Source of the DNA: Collinsella aerofaciens
Lineage (GTDB): Bacteria; Actinomycetota; Coriobacteriia; Coriobacteriales; Coriobacteriaceae
Assembly: GCF_019131995.1 (NCBI RefSeq)
Contig: NZ_JAHONA010000010.1
Location: forward strand, 1 to 64,000
Reading direction: 5' to 3'
DNA length: 64,000 nucleotides
The position numbers were made by a program, and so were the translations under genes. Shown here in pieces: positions 1-36,883 of this stretch. Below the pieces are notes generated by a model. It was given only the letters and a program-made list of their open reading frames with translations. It ran no database searches and was not told where the DNA came from. How positions within the stretch are numbered: the first letter of the stretch is position 1; each line of letters opens with the position of its first letter.

Positions 1-195
1 AGGCGGTTTTCTGCTGGCTGTCAGCCGCGGCATCCTCACGGAAACCTAGTTGTCGCCGGAATTATAGTTCCCGGCGCGGACTCACCTTATCTCCCCGGTG
101 CGGGCTCGATATCCTCTCGGATATCTAATCGTCTTGGACTTTAACCCGCCCAAGCACAGTACAGCTTTTACGTGCCGCCACACGGAGCTTAGCTC
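1..195 (-). ncRNA. Structured RNA, copy 1 (3' end cut by window edge)
   Basis: These 195 bases match 3578-3773 with only about four differences, while the flanks diverge abruptly at 195/196. The minus strand folds into several hairpins, among them GATATCC-GAGA-GGATATC with a GNRA-type loop, and CCGGGAA/TTCCGG. One copy difference (A to G inside the CCGGGAA stem) turns an A-U pair into a G-U pair, so pairing is kept. The conserved block begins right where transcription from the promoter at 203-231 should start. Its terminator would lie left of base 1. I do not recognise an Rfam family. Confidence 0.5.
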
Positions 196-202
196 GTGGA
201 CT

Positions 203-231
203 ATTTTCTAAAATAAAGACCTTCAAGGCAA
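203..231 (-). promoter_or_regulatory. Promoter of structured RNA copy 1
   Basis: On the minus strand there is a -35 TTGCCT (226-231), a 17-bp spacer and a -10 GAAAAT inside TAGAAAAT (203-208). The predicted start falls about 8 bp downstream, at the first base of the conserved RNA block (195). The second copy has the same layout with the same spacer length although the surrounding sequence differs. Confidence 0.5.
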
Positions 232-390
232 CTTGGGTTCAAGCACGGACAAACAAAACAGGCACTGAATACACGACTTGTTTATCAATAGTTATCAATC
301 AAATGCGTTACCAGCAAATATCGTCCGTCTCATACGCTGCGATACAATCAATCTCACCAAATGCTTAACCAGTAAGTCGAAGGGACCAAC

Positions 391-840
391 GTGCTAACAA
401 TTCACTATGGTGATATGGAAAACGTTATCTATAATACGTCGGTTTACTTCGATAACATCTATTCGCCCGAATGGTTTCAAGATGCTTTTGCGCAGAGAAT
501 TATTAAATCCATTGATAAGGGCGGCGTGGTTGGACCCGGCGCAATAAACACCAAGATCCTTGGCATTATCCCACCGGAAAGGCTATCGGGCGGAACTAAG
601 ACGCTGCTGCTCATGTACTTCATGCCTCAGAACATATACAACGCCACAACCTGTAGCGACAATTGCGCTTACTGGATTCTAAGAATCGCCGCACAGCATG
701 ATCTGACGATCAACCTCTACCATCTGATGGATTTTGGAAACGGCAAGTTCACGGCAACCATTGCAAACACGGGTGATGTCGTTCACACGATGTTCGACCT
801 TGTCCCTATAGCCGCAAAATGCCTAAGGGAGAACTCCTGA
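391..840 (+). CDS. DUF4869 family protein, copy 1 (orphan)
   Basis: 149-aa protein with a GTG start preceded by a CGAAGGGA ribosome site. It matches my memory of DUF4869: an N-terminal LTIHYGDM segment, a conserved CxDNCAYWILRIA centre, and an INLYHLMDFG segment. The function of DUF4869 is unknown. It is very similar over its whole length to the protein at 3947-4396, including identical start context and length. In copy 2 an ATPase gene follows with an ATGA overlap. Here that partner is missing and an IS begins 15 bp after the stop, so this copy is an orphan. No signal peptide or membrane segment is seen, so it is probably cytosolic. Confidence 0.85.
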   Translation: MLTIHYGDMENVIYNTSVYFDNIYSPEWFQDAFAQRIIKSIDKGGVVGPGAINTKILGIIPPERLSGGTKTLLLMYFMPQNIYNATTCSDNCAYWILRIAAQHDLTINLYHLMDFGNGKFTATIANTGDVVHTMFDLVPIAAKCLRENS

Positions 841-937
841 CACGCGCTTTCGCTAGGCTCTGTTAGACCAAGATTGGCATACATGTGTCCTCACGGTGCC
901 ATATCGTTGACCCCGTAGACCGCGATGATGGGGCAGC

Positions 938-1993
938 ATGAACGCCGAAGACCTGGTCCTCAACTTCAAGAAGGGCATGGCGAACCTCAGCAAGACCGAG
1001 CGCCGCCGCGCTATCGAGTCCGTCAGGGACGTGATCCGCGCGGCGGCGTTCGACGACGCGGCCGGCTCCGTCTACGAAATCGAACGCTGCCCGCGCTGCG
1101 GGTCCGTCGCGGTCGTGAAGAAGGGCAAATCGAAGAACGGCGAGCAGCGCTACCTCTGCCGGGGCTGCGGCAGGACCTTCGGCATGGGCAGCGAGCGCAT
1201 CCTGGGGACGAGCAGGCTTCCGAAGGAGACCTGGATGGCCTACGCCGAGTGCTTCGTGCTCATGCTGCCCCTGCGCGAGTGCGCGAGGCGCTGCCGCGTC
1301 TGCCTCAAGACCGCCTACACCATGCGCCACAGGCTGATCGAGTGCCTCTCGGCCTACTCCCCCTCGTCCAGGGTCGAGCGGGGCTGCGGCTGCGAGCTCG
1401 ACGAGACCTACTTCCCCGAGTCGTTCAAGGGCAACCACGCGAAGGGGTCGTTCACGATGCCGCGCCCCTCCCGGCACCGCGGCAAGCAGGTGCACAGGCG
1501 CGGGCTGTCGCGCGAGCGGATCTGCGTCATGACCGGCGTGAACGACTCGAACGAGACGTTCCTCGAGGTCACGGGGCGGGGCGCCCTTTCGAGGGAGCGC
1601 GCCATGGACGCGCTGAGGGGCCGCATCGCGGCCGGCTCGGTCGTCGCGACCGACAGGGCGGCCGTCTACGTCAATGTCCTCGCGGAACTCGAGGTCGCCG
1701 CGCACGCGGCCTACGACCCCAAGGACCGCTCCGGGGGAACCATCAACCGGATCAACACCGTCCACTCGCTCCTCGGCGCCTTCATGGAGCCGTTCAAGGG
1801 CGTGTCGACGAAGCACCTCGATGCCTACCTCGCCTGGTTCAGGTGGTGCCGAACCTTCATGGCGACCGATTCCGGCGCCGCCGGGCGCACGGTCGCGCGG
1901 CAGCTCGCGCACGGCGTCTGCAGGAGCCGCGTCCGCGACATGTTCAACGTGGAGCCGCCCTACATGGACTACTGGGCCGCGCCCGCCGCATAG
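938..1993 (+). CDS. IS1595 family transposase
   Basis: 351-aa transposase. The N-terminal part carries a zinc ribbon, CPRCGS (about residues 45-50) and CRGCGRTF (about 72-79). The C-terminal part is an ISXO2-type DDE/DDN domain beginning at the acidic ELDETYF segment. Length fits the IS1595 group. The start at 938 begins MNAEDLV and lies 58 bp inside the left inverted repeat. High-GC code produces long open frames on other frames across this gene, and those are not real. Confidence 0.88.
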   Translation: MNAEDLVLNFKKGMANLSKTERRRAIESVRDVIRAAAFDDAAGSVYEIERCPRCGSVAVVKKGKSKNGEQRYLCRGCGRTFGMGSERILGTSRLPKETWMAYAECFVLMLPLRECARRCRVCLKTAYTMRHRLIECLSAYSPSSRVERGCGCELDETYFPESFKGNHAKGSFTMPRPSRHRGKQVHRRGLSRERICVMTGVNDSNETFLEVTGRGALSRERAMDALRGRIAAGSVVATDRAAVYVNVLAELEVAAHAAYDPKDRSGGTINRINTVHSLLGAFMEPFKGVSTKHLDAYLAWFRWCRTFMATDSGAAGRTVARQLAHGVCRSRVRDMFNVEPPYMDYWAAPAA

Positions 1994-2039
1994 AGGCGGT
2001 AGAATGGTCGCACCGCGATACACGAGGAGGGGTGAGGCC

Positions 2040-2237
2040 ATGCCGTCGAACATACCGGCCACGACGATCCGTATCGACCCGGAGGTCAAGAAGGAGGCCA
2101 CGGCCATCCTGGACGAGCTCGGCCTGTCCATGTCCACCGCCGTCAATGCGTTCCTCAGGGCGCTCGTCCGGGAGGGCGGGATGCCGTTCGAGATGAGGGT
2201 CAAGACGCCGGCGCCCGACGGGGAGACGGCGAGTTAG
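2040..2237 (+). CDS. RelB/DinJ family antitoxin-like protein (IS passenger)
   Basis: 65-aa protein after a GAGGAGGGGTGAGG ribosome-binding stretch. The pattern TTIRIDPEVKKEATAILDEL followed by GLSMSTAVNAFLRALVREGG is the ribbon-helix-helix fold of RelB/DinJ antitoxins. It lies 47 bp after the transposase and ends only 14 bp before the right inverted repeat, so it moves with the IS. No RelE/YafQ-type toxin is encoded inside the element. It may regulate the transposase promoter, act as an anti-toxin against host toxins, or be the relic of a TA pair. Confidence 0.75.
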   Translation: MPSNIPATTIRIDPEVKKEATAILDELGLSMSTAVNAFLRALVREGGMPFEMRVKTPAPDGETAS

Positions 2238-2279
2238 CCGGCAGGTCGGCATGTCAATCCTGGTCTAACAGAGCCTTTT

Positions 2280-2497
2280 CTAAAGCGAGAAGTACTCGCT
2301 CTCAGCGGATAAGTTCGGCCCCAACCACGGATCGCCCGTCAAGAAGAACTCCGGCCAGCGCTGAATGAACAGTGCCTGTTCACGTTTCCAGCGGCGCAGC
2401 TTTTCCTCGTTGGCCTCTTCCCTGCCACGTGAGGTGAACTCGTAGTGGTACAGCTCGGCATAGGGCGTAAAGATGGTGCGGAAGCCCGCCTCCCCCT
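2280..2497 (-). pseudogene. 3' fragment of GT2 glycosyltransferase (duplicate of 5370-5590)
   Basis: This stretch matches the last ~72 codons of the 828-aa glycosyltransferase at 5370-7856, including the ending SEYFS and stop codon. Homology stops at about 2497. It has no start of its own. It shows that the cassette duplication at 1-5373 included the neighbouring glycosyltransferase end, and that the ATPase gene once between DUF4869 and this end was lost from copy 1. Confidence 0.75.
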
Positions 2498-2921
2498 GGC
2501 GCCAAATGCCTCGACCGCGAAGCTGTCCAATTCAAGATGGTCGGCATCGGTCCAGGCTCGGAAGCCTCTGAGACGCCCGACTCGTAGTACGTAACCTTGT
2601 CTATAAACAGGCTTTCCGCACTCACAGCATAAGAAGGCCCGTGCAACAAAACACAAAGGTAGGCCAGAGCAACAAGCAGGATGCAACGGCGATGATGGCC
2701 CAACAAGACAACAGGCATGAGTGCGCCGATCTACACGGCAAGCCAATAAACAGGGTTGGGAAATGCCTGGTGGCAGTACTCATCAGCGTATTAAGATCAA
2801 ATCCTAGCCCAGACTCATAACAGATCGAATCCCTGCAACAGCGGGAAAAGTCGACGTAAATCGTTTAAGTATGCGGCAAGCGGAGAGGGTGTATGGGCGC
2901 TCGCACGCGTCTTTGAATCTT
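2498..2921. other. Decayed junction, no intact gene
   Basis: No convincing complete gene. On the minus strand around 2580-2718 a frame encodes a short hydrophobic, signal-anchor-like N-terminus (HRRCILLVALAYLCVLL), which then runs into the glycosyltransferase remnant. I read it as the truncated start of an unknown membrane protein fused at a recombination point. Confidence 0.4.
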
Positions 2922-3530
2922 CTAATGAGCAAGAAGAGAGGGATCTAGGAGAGACCTAATAGTTCTTGGAAGCTGGGAATCATCGAACTCACCATCTTTA
3001 AACAAGAGGGAATCATATAGCTTCTTATCGTTCTGTCTCGAAAAGATATGAGTGACCAGATGCACATCGTGGGCCTTTGAAAAACAATCTTCGTCCCTTA
3101 AAGATTCAGCAATATAACAACCGCCCCTATAGTTCATGAGTAAGGAAAAGTTCAAGTCTGTTGTTCCAAACTTATAGCACTGCGATTTTGTTGATATGTC
3201 TTCGAGCATAAAGCACGCGGAGGTTGCAAAAGAGGCAAGCTGAACAATATGGTTGACTTTTCTGCGACACAGAGCGTAGGGATGGCGATTCGAAAAGTCG
3301 ATCTGCGACGCAGCAAGTTTTCCTCTGGATGCCAATTTGAAAAACTGCTTAGCCGACAAATGACTATCTACGCCAGTTAAATGCTTGAAATTTTCGGCCT
3401 TATAAATAACTTCGATATACCTGTCATCGAAAACGTACATGAATGACTTTCCGACAAGAAAACCGCGATAAAGTTTTGCTGCCTGATTAATTTCCGCAAC
3501 TATCGCCTTCCGATCTTCAGCCCTACCCAT
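2922..3530 (-). CDS. PBECR4 domain protein (barnase/EndoU/ColE5-RelE-like nuclease fold)
   Basis: 202 aa from the chosen ATG (MGRAEDR). A TTG further upstream at 3575 would extend it across the terminator hairpin, which is unlikely. The segment AAKLYRGFLVGKSFMYVFDD, then YIEVIYKAENFKHLTGVDSHLSAKQFF, matches the PBECR4 family as I know it, a nuclease-like domain of phage and toxin proteins. Catalytic residues are not established for the family. The start lies 12 nt behind the terminator of the structured RNA at 3542-3773, so expression may depend on terminator read-through. Function is inferred as RNase-like toxin or effector. Confidence 0.65.
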   Translation of the reverse strand: MGRAEDRKAIVAEINQAAKLYRGFLVGKSFMYVFDDRYIEVIYKAENFKHLTGVDSHLSAKQFFKLASRGKLAASQIDFSNRHPYALCRRKVNHIVQLASFATSACFMLEDISTKSQCYKFGTTDLNFSLLMNYRGGCYIAESLRDEDCFSKAHDVHLVTHIFSRQNDKKLYDSLLFKDGEFDDSQLPRTIRSLLDPSLLAH

Positions 3531-3541
3531 ACTGCCCCAAT

Positions 3542-3773
3542 CAAAAAAGCCGGGATAACCCCGGCTGATAATCAAAGAGGCGGTTTTCTGCTGGCTGTCA
3601 GCCGCGGCATCCTCACGGAAACCTAGTTGTCGCCGGAATTATAGTCCCCGGCGCGGACTCACCTTATCTCCCCGGTGCGGGCTCGATATCCTCTCGGATA
3701 TCTAATCGTCTTGGACTTTTTACCTGCCCAAGCACAGTACAGCTTTTACGTGCCGCCACACGGAGCTTAGCTC
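3542..3773 (-). ncRNA. Structured RNA, copy 2 (complete)
   Basis: A ~232-nt transcription unit on the minus strand: promoter at 3780-3808, conserved block 3578-3773 (about 98% identical to 1-195), and intrinsic terminator at 3543-3565. Predicted helices include a GAGC/GCTC hairpin at the 5' end, CTTGG/CCAAG, the GATATC GNRA-loop hairpin, CCGG(A/G)A/TTCCGG, and GGCTGACAGCC near the 3' end. It has no open frame worth naming. It is flanked by DUF4869 (divergent) and PBECR4 (downstream). The family is unknown to me. It could be a regulatory RNA, a 6S-like RNA, or an RNA partner of the neighbouring proteins. Confidence 0.55.
3543..3565 (-). terminator. Intrinsic terminator of structured RNA
   Basis: On the minus strand a GCCGGGG-TTAT-CCCGGC hairpin (3549-3565) is followed by six T. 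It separates the RNA from the PBECR4 start at 3530. Confidence 0.8.
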
Positions 3774-3779
3774 AAGATT

Positions 3780-3808
3780 ATTATCTATAACTCAAGCCAC
3801 TAAAGCAA
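3780..3808 (-). promoter_or_regulatory. Promoter of structured RNA copy 2
   Basis: Minus-strand -35 TTGCTT (3803-3808), 17-bp spacer, -10 GATAAT (3780-3785). The start is predicted at about 3773, exactly where identity with the other RNA copy begins. Confidence 0.55.
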
Positions 3809-3946
3809 GCTACGCACGGGCATGGTCAAATTAAATTCAAACCTTGGTCATCAATCACATCTACCGCGGGCCGATAACGCCCGCCTCATGTGCTGCGATA
3901 TAATCAATCTCACTAGATGCCAAATCAGCAAGCCGAAGGAGCTGAC

Positions 3947-4396
3947 GTGCTAACAATTCACTATGGTGATATGGAAAACGTTATCTACAACACGTCCGTT
4001 TACTTCGATAACGTATATTCGCCCCAGTGGTTTCAAGACTCCTTTGCCCAAAGGGTCATAAAATCCATCGACAAAGGCACCGTGGTAGGCCCCAATGCAA
4101 TCGATACCAAGATTCTAGGCATCATTCCTCCCGAGAAACTATCCAGCGGCACCAAAACGCTACTGCTTATGTACTTTATGCCGCAGAATATATATAACGC
4201 CTCAAATTGCGGTGATAATTGCGCCTACTGGATTCTGAGGATCGCCGCGCAAAAGGATCTAACAATCAATCTCTACCACATAATGGATTTTGGAAACGGC
4301 AAATTCACGGTAACCATTGCAAATACGGGCGATATAGTCCACACAATGTTTGACCTTGTCCCCATAGCTGGAAAATGCCTAAGGGAGAACTCCTGA
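3947..4396 (+). CDS. DUF4869 family protein, copy 2
   Basis: 149 aa. I chose the GTG at 3947 because it gives the same length and start context (GAAGGAGCTGAC) as copy 1; an ATG at 3917 would add ten unconserved residues. The conserved DUF4869 segments are present (GDMENVIYNTSVYF, CGDNCAYWILRIAA, NLYHIMDFGNGKF). The stop overlaps the ATG of the ATPase gene (TGATG at 4394-4398), so the two are translationally coupled and probably act together. Biochemical role unknown. Confidence 0.88.
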   Translation: MLTIHYGDMENVIYNTSVYFDNVYSPQWFQDSFAQRVIKSIDKGTVVGPNAIDTKILGIIPPEKLSSGTKTLLLMYFMPQNIYNASNCGDNCAYWILRIAAQKDLTINLYHIMDFGNGKFTVTIANTGDIVHTMFDLVPIAGKCLRENS

Positions 4397-5373
4397 TGCG
4401 CGGATCATACAAGGTAATTATTCAAAATAACCGGGTTCAGTTTAAACTGACCATCAATAGAAATCTGACCATCATCCAAGGTAACAGTGCTACAGGCAAG
4501 ACAACTCTGCTTGATATGGTGGCAGCTCACGAAGAGCTTGGGGCACAAAGCGGCGTAACAGTAAGTTGCAAAGTGCCCTGTAAAACAATATCTGGAAAAT
4601 ATTGGCGTAGAGATCTCCAAGAGATTTCCAGCAGTATTGTTTTTATTGATGAGGGCAATACTTTTGTTCGATCAAGAGAATTTGCCCATGAAGCAAAGCG
4701 TAGCTCAAACTACTACGTAATTGTCGCCAGAGAGTCACTGCGCCAACTGCCCTATAGCGTTGATGAAATCTACGGTCTTAAGAACACCAACCGAACCACA
4801 ACGAAGTATCCCGTTTACTCTCGTGTCTACACCTCTACATATCGTATTTACGGTGATACTGATTTTAGAGGCGAGAGGCCCGAGCTTGTCATTGTCGAGG
4901 ACACAAATTCGGGCTACGAATTCTTCAGTTTGCTATGCAAAAAGAGCAGCATTAAATGCATCAGCGCGGGAGGCAAATCAAATATTTGCAACTGCATTAT
5001 GGACGCACCGGAAAACGACATCCTCGTGATTGCCGACGGTGCCGCCTTTGGACCAGAAATTGCGGAAGCAGCTGCTCTATTGCGCCGAAAGAACATCAAG
5101 CTATTCCTACCGGAATCGTTTGAATGGCTCGTGTTGAAGTCGGGATTATTCAACAGCAAACACATTAAGGACATGCTGCTTAACCCCGCTGAACATATCG
5201 AAAGCTCAAAGTTCTTTAGCTGGGAGAGGTTCTTTACTGCAGAACTCATCGAATGCTCACGAGACACACGTTTTCGATATGACAAGAGCTGCATGAACGA
5301 GGAGTACTTGAACCCCACCGCCCTTGCAGCTCTTGAGGATACTTTGCCGAAACTTGGCATTACTTCGCACTAA
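4396..5373 (+). CDS. P-loop ATPase with TOPRIM-like C-terminus
   Basis: 325 aa. Residues about 28-36 form a Walker A loop, GNSATGKTT, after an ABC/AAA-like beta strand (NLTIIQ). SSIVFIDEGN near residue 80 looks like Walker B. The second half has a TOPRIM-like pattern: an acidic strand LVIVEDTNSG, then SAGGKSN, then DILVIADGAAFG. The domain order resembles OLD-family ATPase-nucleases, but the protein is much shorter. Database entries for similar proteins are sometimes labelled translation initiation factor 2, which the sequence does not support. Coupled to DUF4869 by start-stop overlap. The pair on a mobile-looking island suggests a defence or stress module (inference). Confidence 0.65.
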   Translation: MRGSYKVIIQNNRVQFKLTINRNLTIIQGNSATGKTTLLDMVAAHEELGAQSGVTVSCKVPCKTISGKYWRRDLQEISSSIVFIDEGNTFVRSREFAHEAKRSSNYYVIVARESLRQLPYSVDEIYGLKNTNRTTTKYPVYSRVYTSTYRIYGDTDFRGERPELVIVEDTNSGYEFFSLLCKKSSIKCISAGGKSNICNCIMDAPENDILVIADGAAFGPEIAEAAALLRRKNIKLFLPESFEWLVLKSGLFNSKHIKDMLLNPAEHIESSKFFSWERFFTAELIECSRDTRFRYDKSCMNEEYLNPTALAALEDTLPKLGITSH

Positions 5374-7856
5374 AACGAGAAGTACTCACTGTCGGAGGAT
5401 AGGTTCGGTCCGAGCCACGGGTCACCATCGAGGAAGAGCTCCGGCCAGCGTTGCATGAACAGAGCTTGCTCGCGTTTCCAGCGGCGCAGCTTTTCCTCGT
5501 TAGCCTCTTCCCTGCCGCGCGAGGTGAACTCGTAGTGGTACAGCTCGGCATAGGGCGTAAAGATGGTGCGGTAGCCCGCCTCCCACACGCGCAGGCAAAA
5601 GTCTGCGTCGTTAAAGCCGACGGCGAATTCCTCGTTGTAGCCCCCGACCTGCTCAAATACGTCACGTCGCACCATCTGGCAGGCGCCCGTTACGGCGCTA
5701 AAGTTGCCCGGACGCACAGCACGGGCAAGATAGCCCTCGCGCTTTGCCGAGAAGTCTTGGTTGGCATGGGCAAGTGCGCCGCGCACACCGACCAAAATGC
5801 CAGCGTGCTGCACCAGGTGGTCGGCAAAATAGAGCTTGGCACCCACCACGCCCGCATCGGGACGTTGCAGACAACCCATCATCTCTTCGATAAAGTCGGG
5901 GCTAATGACCTCGGTATCGTTGTTGAGCAGCAGCAGGTAGTCGCCCTTGGCGTGCTCCACACCAAAATTGATGATCTGAGAGTAATTAAACTCGCCCGGC
6001 CAGTACACAACGCGCGCGATGCCCTTGCCTTCTGATGCTGAAGCCACGCGTTCCGGCAGGGTTTCGTAATACGCAAACGTATCCGGGGCTTCGCTGTTGT
6101 TCTCCACCAAGACGATCTCATAGTTGGCATACGTGGCCTTCTGGGCAATCGACATCACACAGGCATCGAGCGTCTCAACGTGGTCCTTGGTGGGAATCAC
6201 AATGCTCACCAGCGGCGCAGGCTCCGGCAGCGCAAAGCGCATGCGGTAGACAAACGGCGTCTCGGTCTCCTCGACCGTTCCGCAAATGCCCAGCGCGTTA
6301 AAGTGGCGCTGCAGCGCAAGACGACCGGCTTCAATAGCATACGGCTTGCTATCGGCAGAGCCATCGGCGGTCGACCCCGGATGAACGCGCCAGTGATACA
6401 GCACGTGCGCAACATGTTCAAACCGCGCGCCCGCCGCAAGGCAGCGGAGCGTCAGGTCGTAGTCCTGGGCACCCGCAACGTCTTCTGGGGACGTGCCGAT
6501 ACGATCGATAAGCGCCTTCTCCACCATCAGGAAATGCGTCACGCAGTTATGGCTATAGAGCAAGTCTACATTGAGCTTGGTCTTAAAGACCGGCTGGCCC
6601 CACTCCCCCGTTTTCTGAAACATGTCCTCGTCGCAGAACAGGACCTGGGGACGCTCGCCCTCGGCAGCATTGTTCAGCGCGGCAACATAGTGGAACAACG
6701 CGTCCGGCTCCAGAATGTCATCGTGGTCCAAGAACGCGATGTAGTCGCCCATCGCTTGCTCAATACCCGCGTTGGTGTTGACCACAATGCCGCCGTTGCC
6801 GGGCAGCCCAAAGCGACGAACGCGCTCGTCGTGGGCGCCTGCCGCAAGGTCGGCAACCGCATCCCATTCAGGTGAGGCATCCATAAGGAGCAATTCCCAG
6901 TTGTCATAGCTCTGGGCTAGCACCGAGTCCAGCAGCTCGCGCAGGTAGACTCGATCGGTCTTGTAGCACGGCACCACAATGCTCACGAGCGGCCTATAGG
7001 CAAAGGCCGCCGAAGCGACACGCTGGCACGCCAAATCGCCCGGCTTTGCGCGATGCTGCTCAAACCAACGTCGATAAGCTGCGTCGTCTGCACGCGAGTC
7101 CTTCATACGGTTCCAGCTGTCGTCGACCATGCCGTTGTACAGGCGACCATCCATGGCGCAAAACCCGCTCTGGATCTGCTCTGTGGGATCGCTCACAATC
7201 GCGACAAAATCTCGTATATCCTGAGGCATCTCAACGCTCAGAAACGTTTTATTGACGCGGCATCCGTCCTGCTGCGGCACATCGACCTGCGACTCAAACA
7301 CATGCACGGTGACATCGATGGCATTCATATGCGTATCGGAGATCTGGAACTCGGGTGCGCACTGGGGGTCTCCCGCCCAGGTAACCTCATAGCGCCACAC
7401 CGCGCCGGAGTCTGCCGGCAAATAGCGAATGGCATCGATCTCGTAGCGACCGCAGCATTCGCCACGCTGCGCATCGCGGATAAGCGCGCACAGCGCAGGC
7501 TTTGCTTTGTAGTTAATCTTGGATTCCAGCTTGGCCACGCGGCTATCGAGGCGAATAGAGCCCAACCTTTGACCACCGGATGCAAAAACGACATCCATCG
7601 ACGAGCCATCCAAAAACGGAAGTACCATGACGGCGAGCTCGCGCTCGTAACCGGAAACGGAAGGGCAAAGCGCCAGCACACGGCCATGATCGACCGGGAG
7701 CACCAGCGACGGCACACGAGAACCGCTCGTCGTCGCATGGACAAACGCTTGAGAACCCTCCCGCTCAATAAGCGCGGCGACATCCTGACCGGCAAAACGA
7801 AGCAGCACAAACAGACGGCCCTGGCTGCGGCAAAGTGCCAAACGTTTGATACTCAT
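5370..7856 (-). CDS. Tandem-domain GT2 glycosyltransferase
   Basis: 828-aa protein with a ~280-residue N-terminal region of unknown role and two GT-A family 2 domains. The first starts near residue 290 (VSIVVPCYK, with LDHDD as the DXD-type metal site), the second near residue 548 (VSIVIPTKDH, with LLNNDTE). No membrane segment is evident. Such double-domain enzymes make rhamnan or other surface glycans from nucleotide sugars. It directly abuts the stop of the upstream glycosyltransferase and converges on the ATPase gene with a 4-bp overlap. A 3' fragment is duplicated at 2280-2497. Confidence 0.88.
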   Translation of the reverse strand: MSIKRLALCRSQGRLFVLLRFAGQDVAALIEREGSQAFVHATTSGSRVPSLVLPVDHGRVLALCPSVSGYERELAVMVLPFLDGSSMDVVFASGGQRLGSIRLDSRVAKLESKINYKAKPALCALIRDAQRGECCGRYEIDAIRYLPADSGAVWRYEVTWAGDPQCAPEFQISDTHMNAIDVTVHVFESQVDVPQQDGCRVNKTFLSVEMPQDIRDFVAIVSDPTEQIQSGFCAMDGRLYNGMVDDSWNRMKDSRADDAAYRRWFEQHRAKPGDLACQRVASAAFAYRPLVSIVVPCYKTDRVYLRELLDSVLAQSYDNWELLLMDASPEWDAVADLAAGAHDERVRRFGLPGNGGIVVNTNAGIEQAMGDYIAFLDHDDILEPDALFHYVAALNNAAEGERPQVLFCDEDMFQKTGEWGQPVFKTKLNVDLLYSHNCVTHFLMVEKALIDRIGTSPEDVAGAQDYDLTLRCLAAGARFEHVAHVLYHWRVHPGSTADGSADSKPYAIEAGRLALQRHFNALGICGTVEETETPFVYRMRFALPEPAPLVSIVIPTKDHVETLDACVMSIAQKATYANYEIVLVENNSEAPDTFAYYETLPERVASASEGKGIARVVYWPGEFNYSQIINFGVEHAKGDYLLLLNNDTEVISPDFIEEMMGCLQRPDAGVVGAKLYFADHLVQHAGILVGVRGALAHANQDFSAKREGYLARAVRPGNFSAVTGACQMVRRDVFEQVGGYNEEFAVGFNDADFCLRVWEAGYRTIFTPYAELYHYEFTSRGREEANEEKLRRWKREQALFMQRWPELFLDGDPWLGPNLSSDSEYFSF

Positions 7857-34535: not shown

Positions 34536-35773
34536 TTATTTCGCGGCCGCTTCGCTTAGGCCGCTGCTTTGAGTTGCCGGTTCTCCGCTATTGCGAGGGC
34601 TTGCCTCCGCTTGAATCGTCCCTCGGGTTGGCCTGCATTGAGCACCCCCCCCCTCCCGCGCGAGATTTTCGAACAGGCTGTGGTACAGCGCGTCCATGGC
34701 CAAAACGCTGCGGTGCGCGTCCAGCCGCTTCATGCCGCCGCGCCAGCTCTGGTAGCTCCGCTCAACCTGCTCGGGGGTCATGACGCCATCGGCGACCATG
34801 CGGGCCATCTTCTTCAGCTTGCGGCGCTCGCGCGTGATGGAGTCGCGGCACGGCTTCACGACTATGCGGCCCGTCTCCGTGTAGAAGATGCGCTTCTTCA
34901 GCCACGTGAAGCCGCGCGACAGCTTCACCACGCGGGTCTTGCGCGGGTTCAGCTCTATGCCCAGCTCGGCGCACTTGCGCCCTATCAGCAGCAGGCACAC
35001 CTGCAGGTACTCCTTGCTCTCGTGGATCAGGTAGAAGTCGTCCATATAGCGCCCGTAGGCCTCAGGGCGCAGCATCTCGGTCACGTAGTGGTCGATGCGG
35101 TTGGGGTGGGCCACCGCGCATATCTGGTTCGGCTCGCTGCCCAGACCCAGGCCCACCTCGCCCTGTGCGTCTATCAGGCGGTGCTCGAGGGCGACCACGC
35201 GCGGATCGAGCAGTGCGTCGGCCACCTGCCGCTTGACGGGTTCGTGGGCTATGCGGGCGAAGTAATCTGAGAAGTCGCCCAAAAGGATGTATCCCTCGCG
35301 CCTGTGCCGCCGCCAGTGGTCGGCCAGGTGGCGCTTGAGCAGCTTCAGGGCGTAGTCGGTGCGCGCCCCTTGATGTTGGCGGAGTTGGCCGTTATGAGTG
35401 TCGGGACTATCGCGGGTACGAGGGCGTTCTGAGAAAGCGACTTCTGAATCACTCGCTCTGGGAAGTGCACGGCGCTGATGTGGCGCAGCTTGCCGCGCTC
35501 CCACAGGTCGAAGCGGATGAAGCCCCGGCATATGTCGCGGCCCTCCAGAAGGTCGTTCCTCGATTTGACCGCGTTTCGCAGATAGTCCTTCATATAACGC
35601 TGCGTGGAGGACTTCCACATCACGCCGCCCGCCGCCTGCTTGGAGGCCTTGCAAAGGCTGTTGAGGTCGGCCACGGCCTCAAGGGTGCACGGCTTCACGC
35701 GCTCGGCCTTGGCCTTGGCGCACCTCTCCTCGCGGCGCTTGCGGCGCGCGGCCCTTCTTTCCTCGGAGTTCAT
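34536..35773 (-). pseudogene. Phage reverse transcriptase, frame-disrupted (DGR-like)
   Basis: About 410 codons over two frames. N-terminal part (35345-35773, ATG MNSEERRAARRKRREER) runs to FPERVIQKSLSQNALVP and ANSANIKG, then hits a stop. The remaining domain continues in another frame from about 35365: TDYALKLLKRHLADHW, GYILLGDFSDYF, GSEPNQI (position of the DGR-type GxxxSQ motif 4), and catalytic GRYMDDFYLI. Restoring one base near 35360-35369 (CGCGCACC to CGCGGCACC) rejoins them as NIKGRGTDYAL. A second frame choice occurs at a nine-C tract (34645-34653) near the C-terminus. Mutation, assembly error or controlled expression remain possible. Confidence 0.8.
34645..34653 (-). repeat. Homopolymer tract (nine G on coding strand) in RT 3' end
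   Basis: The present length gives the tail GGGAQCRPTRG ending at 34536. A one-base change would instead give VLNAGQPEGRFKRRQALAIA ending at 34556, a more protein-like basic tail. Candidate slipped-strand switch. Confidence 0.5.
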
Positions 35774-35782
35774 CGAAGGCAC

Positions 35783-35965
35783 CCCGCACGGCTCTCAGTG
35801 TGGCTCTGGCAGCCGCTTGAGGTATGGCCATGAAACGCGGCGAAGCCACGGAGCGCCGCGCCATGCAAGCAGCGTCCGGCCACCCTCGCGGGGTGCGTAT
35901 TTACGGGCGCATGCCCGACGGTCGCGCCTTCCTTCCTCTTCGCGCGCTGCTTTCGGCCCTGGGGC
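35783..35965. other. Spacer between variable gene and RT; no template repeat seen
   Basis: 183 bp where a DGR template repeat would be expected. I find no near-copy of the variable region and no adenine-rich (T-rich on the plus strand) version of it. A small GGCCC-AG-GGGCC-type hairpin follows the variable gene stop. Confidence 0.5.
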
Positions 35966-36883
35966 CTACTCGGTCTGGCAATAAGGGAATCCGGGGCGGG
36001 GGCGAACCCAGACGTTCGTCGCGGAGTTGCAGTTGGCATTGCCGTCGTTGCTGACGTAGCACACGTCGGACGACGAGCCACCCATGACGGAACGCAGCCA
36101 CCAGCCGTACCGATTTCCGTTGACTCGGTGGGCGGTGTCGCGGAACAGGTCCCACTGGCAGTCGAAGCCGACGCTGTAGCCCTTCGTCCCCCACACGGGG
36201 CAGCCGTACACCTCCATCTCCGACAGCGAGAACACCTTGCCGATATCCTGCCAGCTCCACGAGTTGGAGTCGTTGAGCGCGCCGCTTGCGCTGTAACGCT
36301 CCTCCAGCAGGACGCGCTGGGTCAGCAGGTACTTGGTCAGCCCCTCGGGCAGGCAGGCCTCGAAGGCCGTCTCCCACGCCTTGAGGTTGCTGTTGGGGTA
36401 GGGGCATTTCTGGTCGGCGGTGCCCTGGTTCGTGTTGGTGGTGTTCCACATTAGGAAGCTGTCGTTTGCCACGCCTGTCACGGATTTTGCCACGGCCACG
36501 GGGGCGGACGCCACGAACGCGATATGGTGGCCCTTGCTGTTGTCGCCGCAGTAGAGGTACGGGTCGATGTGGGCAAGCAGGAACCGCGCAGATTGCTGGG
36601 TGGTGACGGCGGACGCGCTCACGAGAGGCACGTCGATGTAGTCCCCGACGCGAAGGCCCGCGAAGTTGCCGGCCGCCGCTCGCTTGTGCAGCGCGTCGTA
36701 CACGCTGCCGCTGCCGATCTCTCCCGCCAGGATGGTGGCGATGTTCTGCCCGCCGTACTTGCCGATTTGGCCCTGGCGGTTGTACTCGGCGTTGTTGAGC
36801 GCCGTCTGCGCGTTGCTGCGCGCGGTATCGTCGATGACGTTGAGCGACTGGCCGCCGACGACCAGTGTCTTTGCATTTGCCAT
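35966..36883 (-). CDS. DGR-type variable tail protein (C-type-lectin-like C-terminus)
   Basis: 305 aa, ATG with GGAGG 4 bp upstream. The C-terminal third (NGNRYGWWLRSV, then VSNDGNANCNSATNVWVRP, then GFPYC) is the CLec/DUF6273-like fold used as receptor-binding variable domain in diversity-generating retroelements. Most likely variable codons lie between RSV and VRPRPG, roughly 35990-36080. Asn-rich residues there fit AAY-derived codons. The N-terminal part (GQIGKYGGQNIATIL) is a tail-attachment region seen in phage proteins. Probably binds a host surface glycan or protein. Confidence 0.75.
   Translation of the reverse strand: MANAKTLVVGGQSLNVIDDTARSNAQTALNNAEYNRQGQIGKYGGQNIATILAGEIGSGSVYDALHKRAAAGNFAGLRVGDYIDVPLVSASAVTTQQSARFLLAHIDPYLYCGDNSKGHHIAFVASAPVAVAKSVTGVANDSFLMWNTTNTNQGTADQKCPYPNSNLKAWETAFEACLPEGLTKYLLTQRVLLEERYSASGALNDSNSWSWQDIGKVFSLSEMEVYGCPVWGTKGYSVGFDCQWDLFRDTAHRVNGNRYGWWLRSVMGGSSSDVCYVSNDGNANCNSATNVWVRPRPGFPYCQTE

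Follow-up and report, generated by a model that had tools for sequence, protein, structure and literature searches.

Type III toxin-antitoxin systems (ToxIN, CptIN and TenpIN) carry an RNA gene upstream of a nuclease gene and on its strand, with a terminator standing before the nuclease gene. PARIS and OLD class 4 are two-gene systems of another kind, in which an ABC ATPase is accompanied by a Toprim-like effector. In PARIS, according to two papers, AriA and AriB are encoded by separate genes, and AriA sequesters AriB until a phage trigger, while AriB cuts a tRNA (PMC10568477; PMC12409363). The subject here is the left end of a stretch of 64,000 nucleotides (nt) from Collinsella aerofaciens (contig NZ_JAHONA010000010.1, positions 1 to 64,000; the window), which holds two copies of a folded RNA, two genes of the domain of unknown function DUF4869, a gene for a P-loop protein and a gene for a PBECR4 nuclease. 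With a probability of about 0.6, we read them as two independent, back-to-back modules resembling toxin-antitoxin systems, which would have been shuffled together by recombination, and not as one three-part cassette. The parts of the two modules are placed as follows.

1..196, minus strand: RNA copy 1, delimited by alignment of the copies; its 3' end is lost at the window start
391..840, plus strand: DUF4869 copy 1, 149 amino acids (aa) from a GTG start (PF16163, 167.8 bits); an orphan with no ATPase gene downstream
2922..3530, minus strand: PBECR4 nuclease gene, 202 aa, ATG at 3530-3528 (PF18813, 71.6 bits; phrog_18856)
3540..3566, minus strand: intrinsic terminator between RNA copy 2 and PBECR4, an 8-pair hairpin with a T-run
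3577..3773, minus strand: RNA copy 2, about 235 nt including the terminator; proposed RNA partner of PBECR4
3780..3808, minus strand: promoter-like site for RNA copy 2 (TTGCTT, spacing 17, GATAAT), read by eye
3947..4396, plus strand: DUF4869 copy 2 (PF16163, 181.5 bits); predicted model with a predicted local distance difference test score (pLDDT) of 95.0
4396..5373, plus strand: P-loop protein of 325 aa, represented in an alignment of 40 proteins; predicted model with pLDDT 85.8 and a predicted template-modelling score (pTM) of 0.82

Both DUF4869 genes exceed the curated PF16163 cut-off (28.9 bits), and each is preceded by an element of ~196 bases, for which the minus strand gives the better fold; the RNA model matches copy 1 at 12-192 with 227.6 bits, this copy being among the five used to build it. 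The P-loop gene overlaps the stop of DUF4869 copy 2 by one base, and all 40 aligned proteins share Met1, which is why its start was put at 4396 and not at 4375 as in the open reading frame (ORF) list. An earlier note on this DNA had joined the RNA, DUF4869 and the ATPase/Toprim-like protein in one cassette. It located the parts correctly and was right that copy 1 consists of the RNA and DUF4869 only, there being no ATPase behind 391-840; its grouping gives way to one in which the RNA goes with PBECR4 and DUF4869 with the ATPase.

On the minus strand, the promoter-like site, the RNA, the terminator and, after about 12 bases, the PBECR4 start follow one another, and the space between terminator and start hardly fits a separate promoter. 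The RNA is transcribed away from DUF4869, on the same strand as the PBECR4 gene directly downstream. The rule used for the terminator expects 0.7 such sites in shuffled versions of the stretch. The other four RNA copies are also preceded by similar promoter-like sites as read by eye; a promoter consensus scan of the RNA upstream region gave no site at the scan threshold. Judged from its sequence, the RNA-PBECR4 arrangement is a type III toxin-antitoxin-like architecture. The first module would consist of a promoter, a folded RNA of ~200 nt, a terminator and the PBECR4 nuclease; most transcripts would end at the terminator and yield the RNA, and a few would read through to form the nuclease mRNA. 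We infer that the protein is an active and toxic nuclease and that the RNA binds and blocks it until their ratio is upset, probably by phage infection.

The same link is found in phage contigs. Relatives of PBECR4 occur at three loci in viral contigs (L115, L116 and L117). In L115 and L116, which have nearly the same sequence, the region upstream of PBECR4 matches the window-RNA model over its whole length with 73.9 and 75.7 bits (E about 1e-20), and neither sequence was used in the model. The L115 PBECR4 is 53% identical to that of the window, and the terminator is also present. L117 matches PBECR4 from residue 27 only, and the ~200 bases upstream show no visible RNA by eye, the model not having been run on them. 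Altogether the model matched 2 of 23 sources, the Lachnospirales loci, L052 and L053 being without a match. In the viral_contigs set, a long RNA pattern found nothing and a short one found two contigs; phage and plasmid records gave no window RNA, and PBECR4 was absent from the phage records and present in one plasmid record. A search of L115, L052 and L053 against Rfam gave one sub-threshold match only. In L115 (313-4318), the RNA-PBECR4 cassette lies between the portal and large-terminase genes and is a possible moron.

These distributions bear directly on the cassette of the earlier note, a single defence or stress system made of the RNA, DUF4869 and the ATPase/Toprim-like protein, which we consider very improbable. 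The three parts adjoin in window copy 2, and the RNA stands beside DUF4869 in 3/3 relatives having the RNA, but the distribution largely contradicts such a unit. At the 21 intact Collinsella DUF4869-ATPase places the RNA model has no match, and in loci L001-L020 none that convinces, so the RNA was rejected as a partner of DUF4869; among these loci, the operon DNA of L001, L002, L004 and L005 is 96-99.7% identical, yet different sequence lies upstream. In the phage contigs the RNA precedes PBECR4, and no DUF4869 was noticed in the L115 ORF list, in which no profile search was made. A DNA search for the RNA in 297 genomes of the order led back to these three relatives, and its three other matches, 24-31 bases long, look like chance. 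Two further RNA-model matches were taken as chance, one in L064 (18.6 bits; G+C-rich and overlapping a 217-aa ORF on the other strand) and one in L033 (14.3 bits; G+C-rich).

Of 295 Lachnospirales genomes, 31 have PBECR4, at 40 places in all, and 30 genomes have a match over the cut-off; in the window's order it occurs in one of 294 genomes, the same genome that was positive among 43 Collinsella. The leader survey took 30 of the 40 Lachnospirales places, two of G019, L115, L148 and the window (35), of which three without a usable start and two with too little DNA were removed, leaving 30; the controls (n=110) were the sequences preceding crudely called ORFs, taken from the vicinity of DUF4869 loci and from control stretches. 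Hairpins of -15 kcal/mol or below within 110 bases of the start were present in 26/30 PBECR4 leaders versus 31/110 controls, and at a threshold of -10 kcal/mol in 30/30 versus 68/110. Ungapped direct repeats scoring at least 18 were found in 11/30 leaders versus 3/110 controls; the window RNA scores 12.0 and has no clear tandem repeats. Promoter scores of at least 10 of 12 were reached by 20/30 versus 8/110, in scans of up to 400 versus 270 bases that favour PBECR4. The strict hairpin-plus-T-run rule was satisfied by 12 of 32 PBECR4 regions and by no control. Close relatives among the places (L119 and L120 do not differ in this region) make all these leader counts overstate independence.

Another RNA class occupies the same place. 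In Rfam searches, the drum RNA lies in the leader of 6/20 PBECR4 loci. Across the same 295 Lachnospirales genomes, drum (RF02958) has 13 places in 11 genomes, and at 10 of them a PBECR4 match starts 52-72 bases downstream on the same strand; above the gathering score, 9/11 places lead into PBECR4. As for the other three, a terminator-like hairpin and a truncated PBECR4-like start follow drum in G392 (by eye), and nothing was recognised at two. The window RNA does not match the drum model, either at the gathering score or at E up to 5, and it has no Rfam match at gathering score, with chance-level matches only for positions 1-4000 at E up to 5; it is thus a separate class in the same place as drum. 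Term searches found no literature on PBECR4 and none linking Clostridiales-1, drum, toxin-antitoxin and noncoding RNA; drum RNA by itself led to a paper on RNA structure prediction, and type III toxin-antitoxin systems combined with BECR led to a single paper. No earlier description of the drum-PBECR4 link was found either, and one may exist, as most subscription papers lie outside the coverage of the search. In L121 (2453-2620), a Clostridiales-1 RNA (RF01699, 133.1 bits) precedes a PBECR4 gene with a tandem-repeat leader of its own; the RNA lies farther upstream than that leader and was not counted.

An RNA in this position could instead be a cis-acting leader, a riboswitch or an attenuator, that controls only the expression of PBECR4 and binds no protein, an alternative that deserves weight and that we still regard as unlikely. 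The packing of RNA, terminator and start codon resembles that of attenuated leaders, and the absence of clear tandem repeats from the window RNA fits this too. In contrast, one nuclease family is preceded by sequences of several dissimilar kinds (drum, the window class and tandem-repeat types), which is unlike a ligand-sensing leader, and the RNA is retained where PBECR4 is broken or absent (G025, G007 and G015), as is drum in G392 before what looks by eye like a truncated PBECR4 start. These three Collinsella genomes, which carry the RNA and give no PBECR4 match, also weigh against pairing the RNA with the nuclease: G025 keeps the RNA, the terminator and only 233 bases of the PBECR4 end, and G007 and G015 show neither terminator nor PBECR4 end by eye. 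The RNA as partner of PBECR4 is the reading we retain, and the RNA-PBECR4 link is a firmer and more general result than the split ATPase described below.

The two RNA copies of the window are 98.5% identical to each other, while their spacers are 70% and their DUF4869 genes 82% identical. Copy 1 is the orthologue of the RNA-DUF4869 arrangement in G025, G007 and G015, whose RNAs are 96.9, 95.4 and 88.7% identical to it, and the DUF4869 of its best orthologue is 99.8% identical. The window copies being more alike than copy 1 and its best orthologue, the sequences indicate a recent exchange of the RNA patch between them. Copy 2 from 3833 onward matches the DUF4869-ATPase operons of L001-L004, whose upstream sequence differs, and copy 2 is therefore a mosaic. 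Among the orthologues the RNA is not better conserved than DUF4869 (L023: 88.7 versus 90.4%). With the five Collinsella RNA copies, pair covariation is no better than in shuffles (97/500 reach the score). With the two phage sequences added, 6/52 pairs change on both sides (reached by 2/500 shuffles), in 11 cells (0/500), and the covariation score is reached by none of the 500 shuffles and none of the six slid versions, whereas 425/500 shuffles reach the count of further pair types. A free fold of the same seven-sequence alignment retains most hairpins and adds a closing helix. Covariation gives weak support to the RNA, supportive and not conclusive, because the alignment was fitted to the structure, holds seven sequences and owes its changes mostly to one phage lineage.

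The second module is formed by DUF4869 and the P-loop protein. The DUF4869 alignment has an ABC signature-like motif in 43/43 rows and a Walker A motif in 0/43, and the P-loop ATPase alignment has Walker A and Walker B in 40/40 and the signature in 0/40. The complete ABC motif set (Walker A, signature, Walker B) is present, divided between two proteins. Matches of the predicted DUF4869 model are weak but uniform and nearly all ABC-class by description (PtuA, AriA, SMC and CFTR), the best Foldseek matches being PtuA (8sux, 8eea and 8ee4). When the DUF4869 profile was compared with 228 arbitrary proteins, the best match was an ABC ATPase, aligned at its LSGGMQQ. The P-loop protein model matches 9lp9, retron Eco8, with its first half and 6nk8 with its second half, where Toprim fold matches are tied with receivers; Glu168, Gly193 and Asp214 are invariant in the 40 rows. 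The sequence of the P-loop protein has no Toprim match in Pfam, no NCBIfam match over the cut-off and a match of only 12.5 bits (E 0.02) to the AriA profile, and its best PADLOC match, LmuB, covers residues 6-119 only (2.6e-5). Because the motifs are complementary and the weak fold matches agree, DUF4869 and the P-loop protein look like the two parts of a single, split ABC ATPase with an OLD/Toprim-like tail, a structural hypothesis with consistent motif evidence to which the fold similarity adds weak support.

In the second module, an ABC-type ATPase would be divided so that DUF4869, having lost its Walker A, supplies the signature half, while its neighbour supplies the half with Walker A and B and carries an OLD/Toprim-like effector fused to it. 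We infer that the two proteins form a complex in which both halves make up one composite ATP site, and that DUF4869 keeps the effector inactive until a trigger leads to its release or activation, in the manner of AriA and AriB in PARIS.

The pair is conserved. The ATPase belongs to a large family, 5690 of the 7994 candidates scored matching at E 0.001, and at loci found via the ATPase, DUF4869 lies directly upstream in 20/20. Two samples were not chosen for the pair, the Collinsella and the Lachnospirales sample, the latter of which (196 genomes) was drawn round G304, a known carrier of the pair and one of the 11 positive genomes. In Collinsella, 28 DUF4869 places were found in 20/43 genomes, 21 with an intact ATPase, 6 alone and 1 with a fragment; an independent ATPase search returned the same 21 intact genes and the same fragment. 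In Lachnospirales, 13 places occur in 11/196 genomes (4 with intact, 6 with broken, 2 without and 1 with a divergent ATPase). Over all 41 places, there are 25 intact ATPases, 7 broken, 1 divergent split form and 8 with none detected, and some of the broken copies may be assembly errors. No intact ATPase lacks DUF4869 (0/25), so that the linkage is obligate in these samples; the contig of one ATPase fragment (G429 C46) gives no match to DUF4869. On whether DUF4869 mostly stands without partners, which the earlier note had raised, the answer is no for the ATPase and yes for this RNA. Its view of DUF4869-ATPase as a conserved pair lacking a literature description is borne out, as literature searches on DUF4869 and on split ABC ATPases found nothing. 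In phage records the ATPase occurs in 5/50,697, all unannotated fecal contigs, in plasmids in 3/72,556 and in IMG/VR at one locus.

The orphan DUF4869 genes are under purifying selection, as expected of an antidote. None of the DUF4869 matches has an internal stop and 1/41 is a fragment, and G007 and G005 have orphan DUF4869 only, with no ATPase match in the genome. The ratio of nonsynonymous to synonymous substitution rates (dN/dS) of orphans ranges over 0.05-0.18: copy 1 gives 0.18 against L022, 0.083 against L023 and no synonymous change against L021, and L041 against L051 gives 0.058. The paired copy 2 is similar (0.085 against L004, 0.095 against L005). A divergent form in L097 (129-1651) has three genes, for DUF4869, a 146-aa P-loop protein that matches the ATPase half (E 7.8e-8) and a 225-aa protein in which, by eye, the motifs of the Toprim half follow the same sequence of occurrence; the profile comparison of the latter was not significant, and as a query it has 3583 relatives at E 0.001. 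In L099 (1459-3372), an orphan DUF4869 is followed by two genes that are AbiEi/AbiEii-like by eye, which Pfam did not confirm.

The surroundings of the pair were surveyed through 106 proteins at 11 of the 20 loci L001-L020 and 122 control proteins. On the defence-island idea of the earlier note, PADLOC gave 78 families for the neighbours and 28 for the controls, counted as families and not as matching proteins, but among 25 families listed for neighbours, 17 are Cas3/Cas5 models matching one protein each. The glycosyltransferase 2 (GT2) and GDP-mannose dehydratase models match five of the neighbours each, neither model is among the families matching two or more controls, and the Collinsella pair adjoins glycosyltransferases and rfbB. 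The pair could serve surface polysaccharide loci as an accessory regulator or enzyme and be neither a toxin-antitoxin nor a defence pair, a reading that we hold to be slightly less likely still than the cis-acting leader. Against such a role, the link is not constant, since the surroundings elsewhere are of housekeeping, Fic, Cas or plasmid/phage kind, and mobile cargo commonly lands in polysaccharide loci.

Between the two RNA-DUF4869 copies of the window lie, besides the minus-strand PBECR4 gene, an insertion sequence (IS) of the IS1595 type and the end of a glycosyltransferase gene.

855..2275, plus strand: IS1595 insertion, element ends read by eye
938-1993: IS1595 transposase (NF033547, 135.9 bits)
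2040-2237: RelB-like gene of 65 aa behind the transposase, inside IS1595 (PF04221 RelB, 45.5 bits)
2280..2502, minus strand: 3'-end remnant, by DNA identity, of a glycosyltransferase gene resembling 5370-7856

The remnant has 86.5-95.5% DNA identity with the corresponding stretch in L001-L005 and L008. Window position 1 is the edge of the repeated RNA element, and the contig may have broken there for that reason. Farther along, on the minus strand at 34536-35983, an RT-2 RNA (RF03077, 135.6 bits, 35759-35983) lies directly upstream of a reverse transcriptase gene (34536-35654, RVT_1 match) and is overlapped by a gene with a DUF6273 match (35966-36883).

Taken together, PBECR4 nucleases might act as toxins in a type III-like family that is large, undescribed and served by many unrelated RNA antitoxins (drum and the window class among them), standing here beside a new ABC ATPase-Toprim effector whose ATPase is split, the signature half DUF4869 being the antidote and the Walker half carrying the toxin; we advance this combined picture tentatively, at somewhat less than even odds. 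The RNA-PBECR4 result offers a testable function for the orphan RNA class drum and for a nuclease family known here by domain name only; it also suggests that evolution arrived at the RNA-protein toxin-antitoxin plan with a second nuclease type too. For DUF4869, a domain of unknown function gains a hypothesis, that of the signature half of a split ABC ATPase controlling a Toprim-like effector in gut bacteria.

Among known systems, PARIS and OLD class 4 are close to the second module. With PARIS it shares the two-gene build, and the DUF4869 model matches AriA; in contrast, the cut here falls inside the ATPase, the signature half being separate and the Walker half fused to the effector. The second module would work like PARIS/OLD systems by analogy at most; the family profiles missed it. 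Caution against assuming defence here is also advised by a fifth OLD class, which apparently has no virus defence role (PMC12796447). The OLD, Gabija and retron-Eco8 nucleases share the order of a P-loop ATPase and then a Toprim-like half, whereas the window protein is much smaller and without a signature motif of its own, and no helicase or reverse transcriptase partner was seen at the loci viewed. Septu PtuA, to which Foldseek matches DUF4869 best, is a complete ATPase, whereas DUF4869 is without Walker A and its partner here is the P-loop protein. For the first module, the drum leaders have the same position before PBECR4 as the window RNA. The window and L115 share with type III systems the upstream RNA gene on the same strand and the terminator before the nuclease gene, and the direct repeats of 11/30 surveyed PBECR4 leaders are a further likeness. 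The window PBECR4 protein has no PADLOC match, and in Pfam up to E 1 it matches only PBECR4 and, below threshold, Colicin_immun, with no ToxN-type match. Different from type III systems, the nuclease here is PBECR4 (BECR-type by its Pfam name), the RNAs belong to several classes, and the neutralisation is putative.

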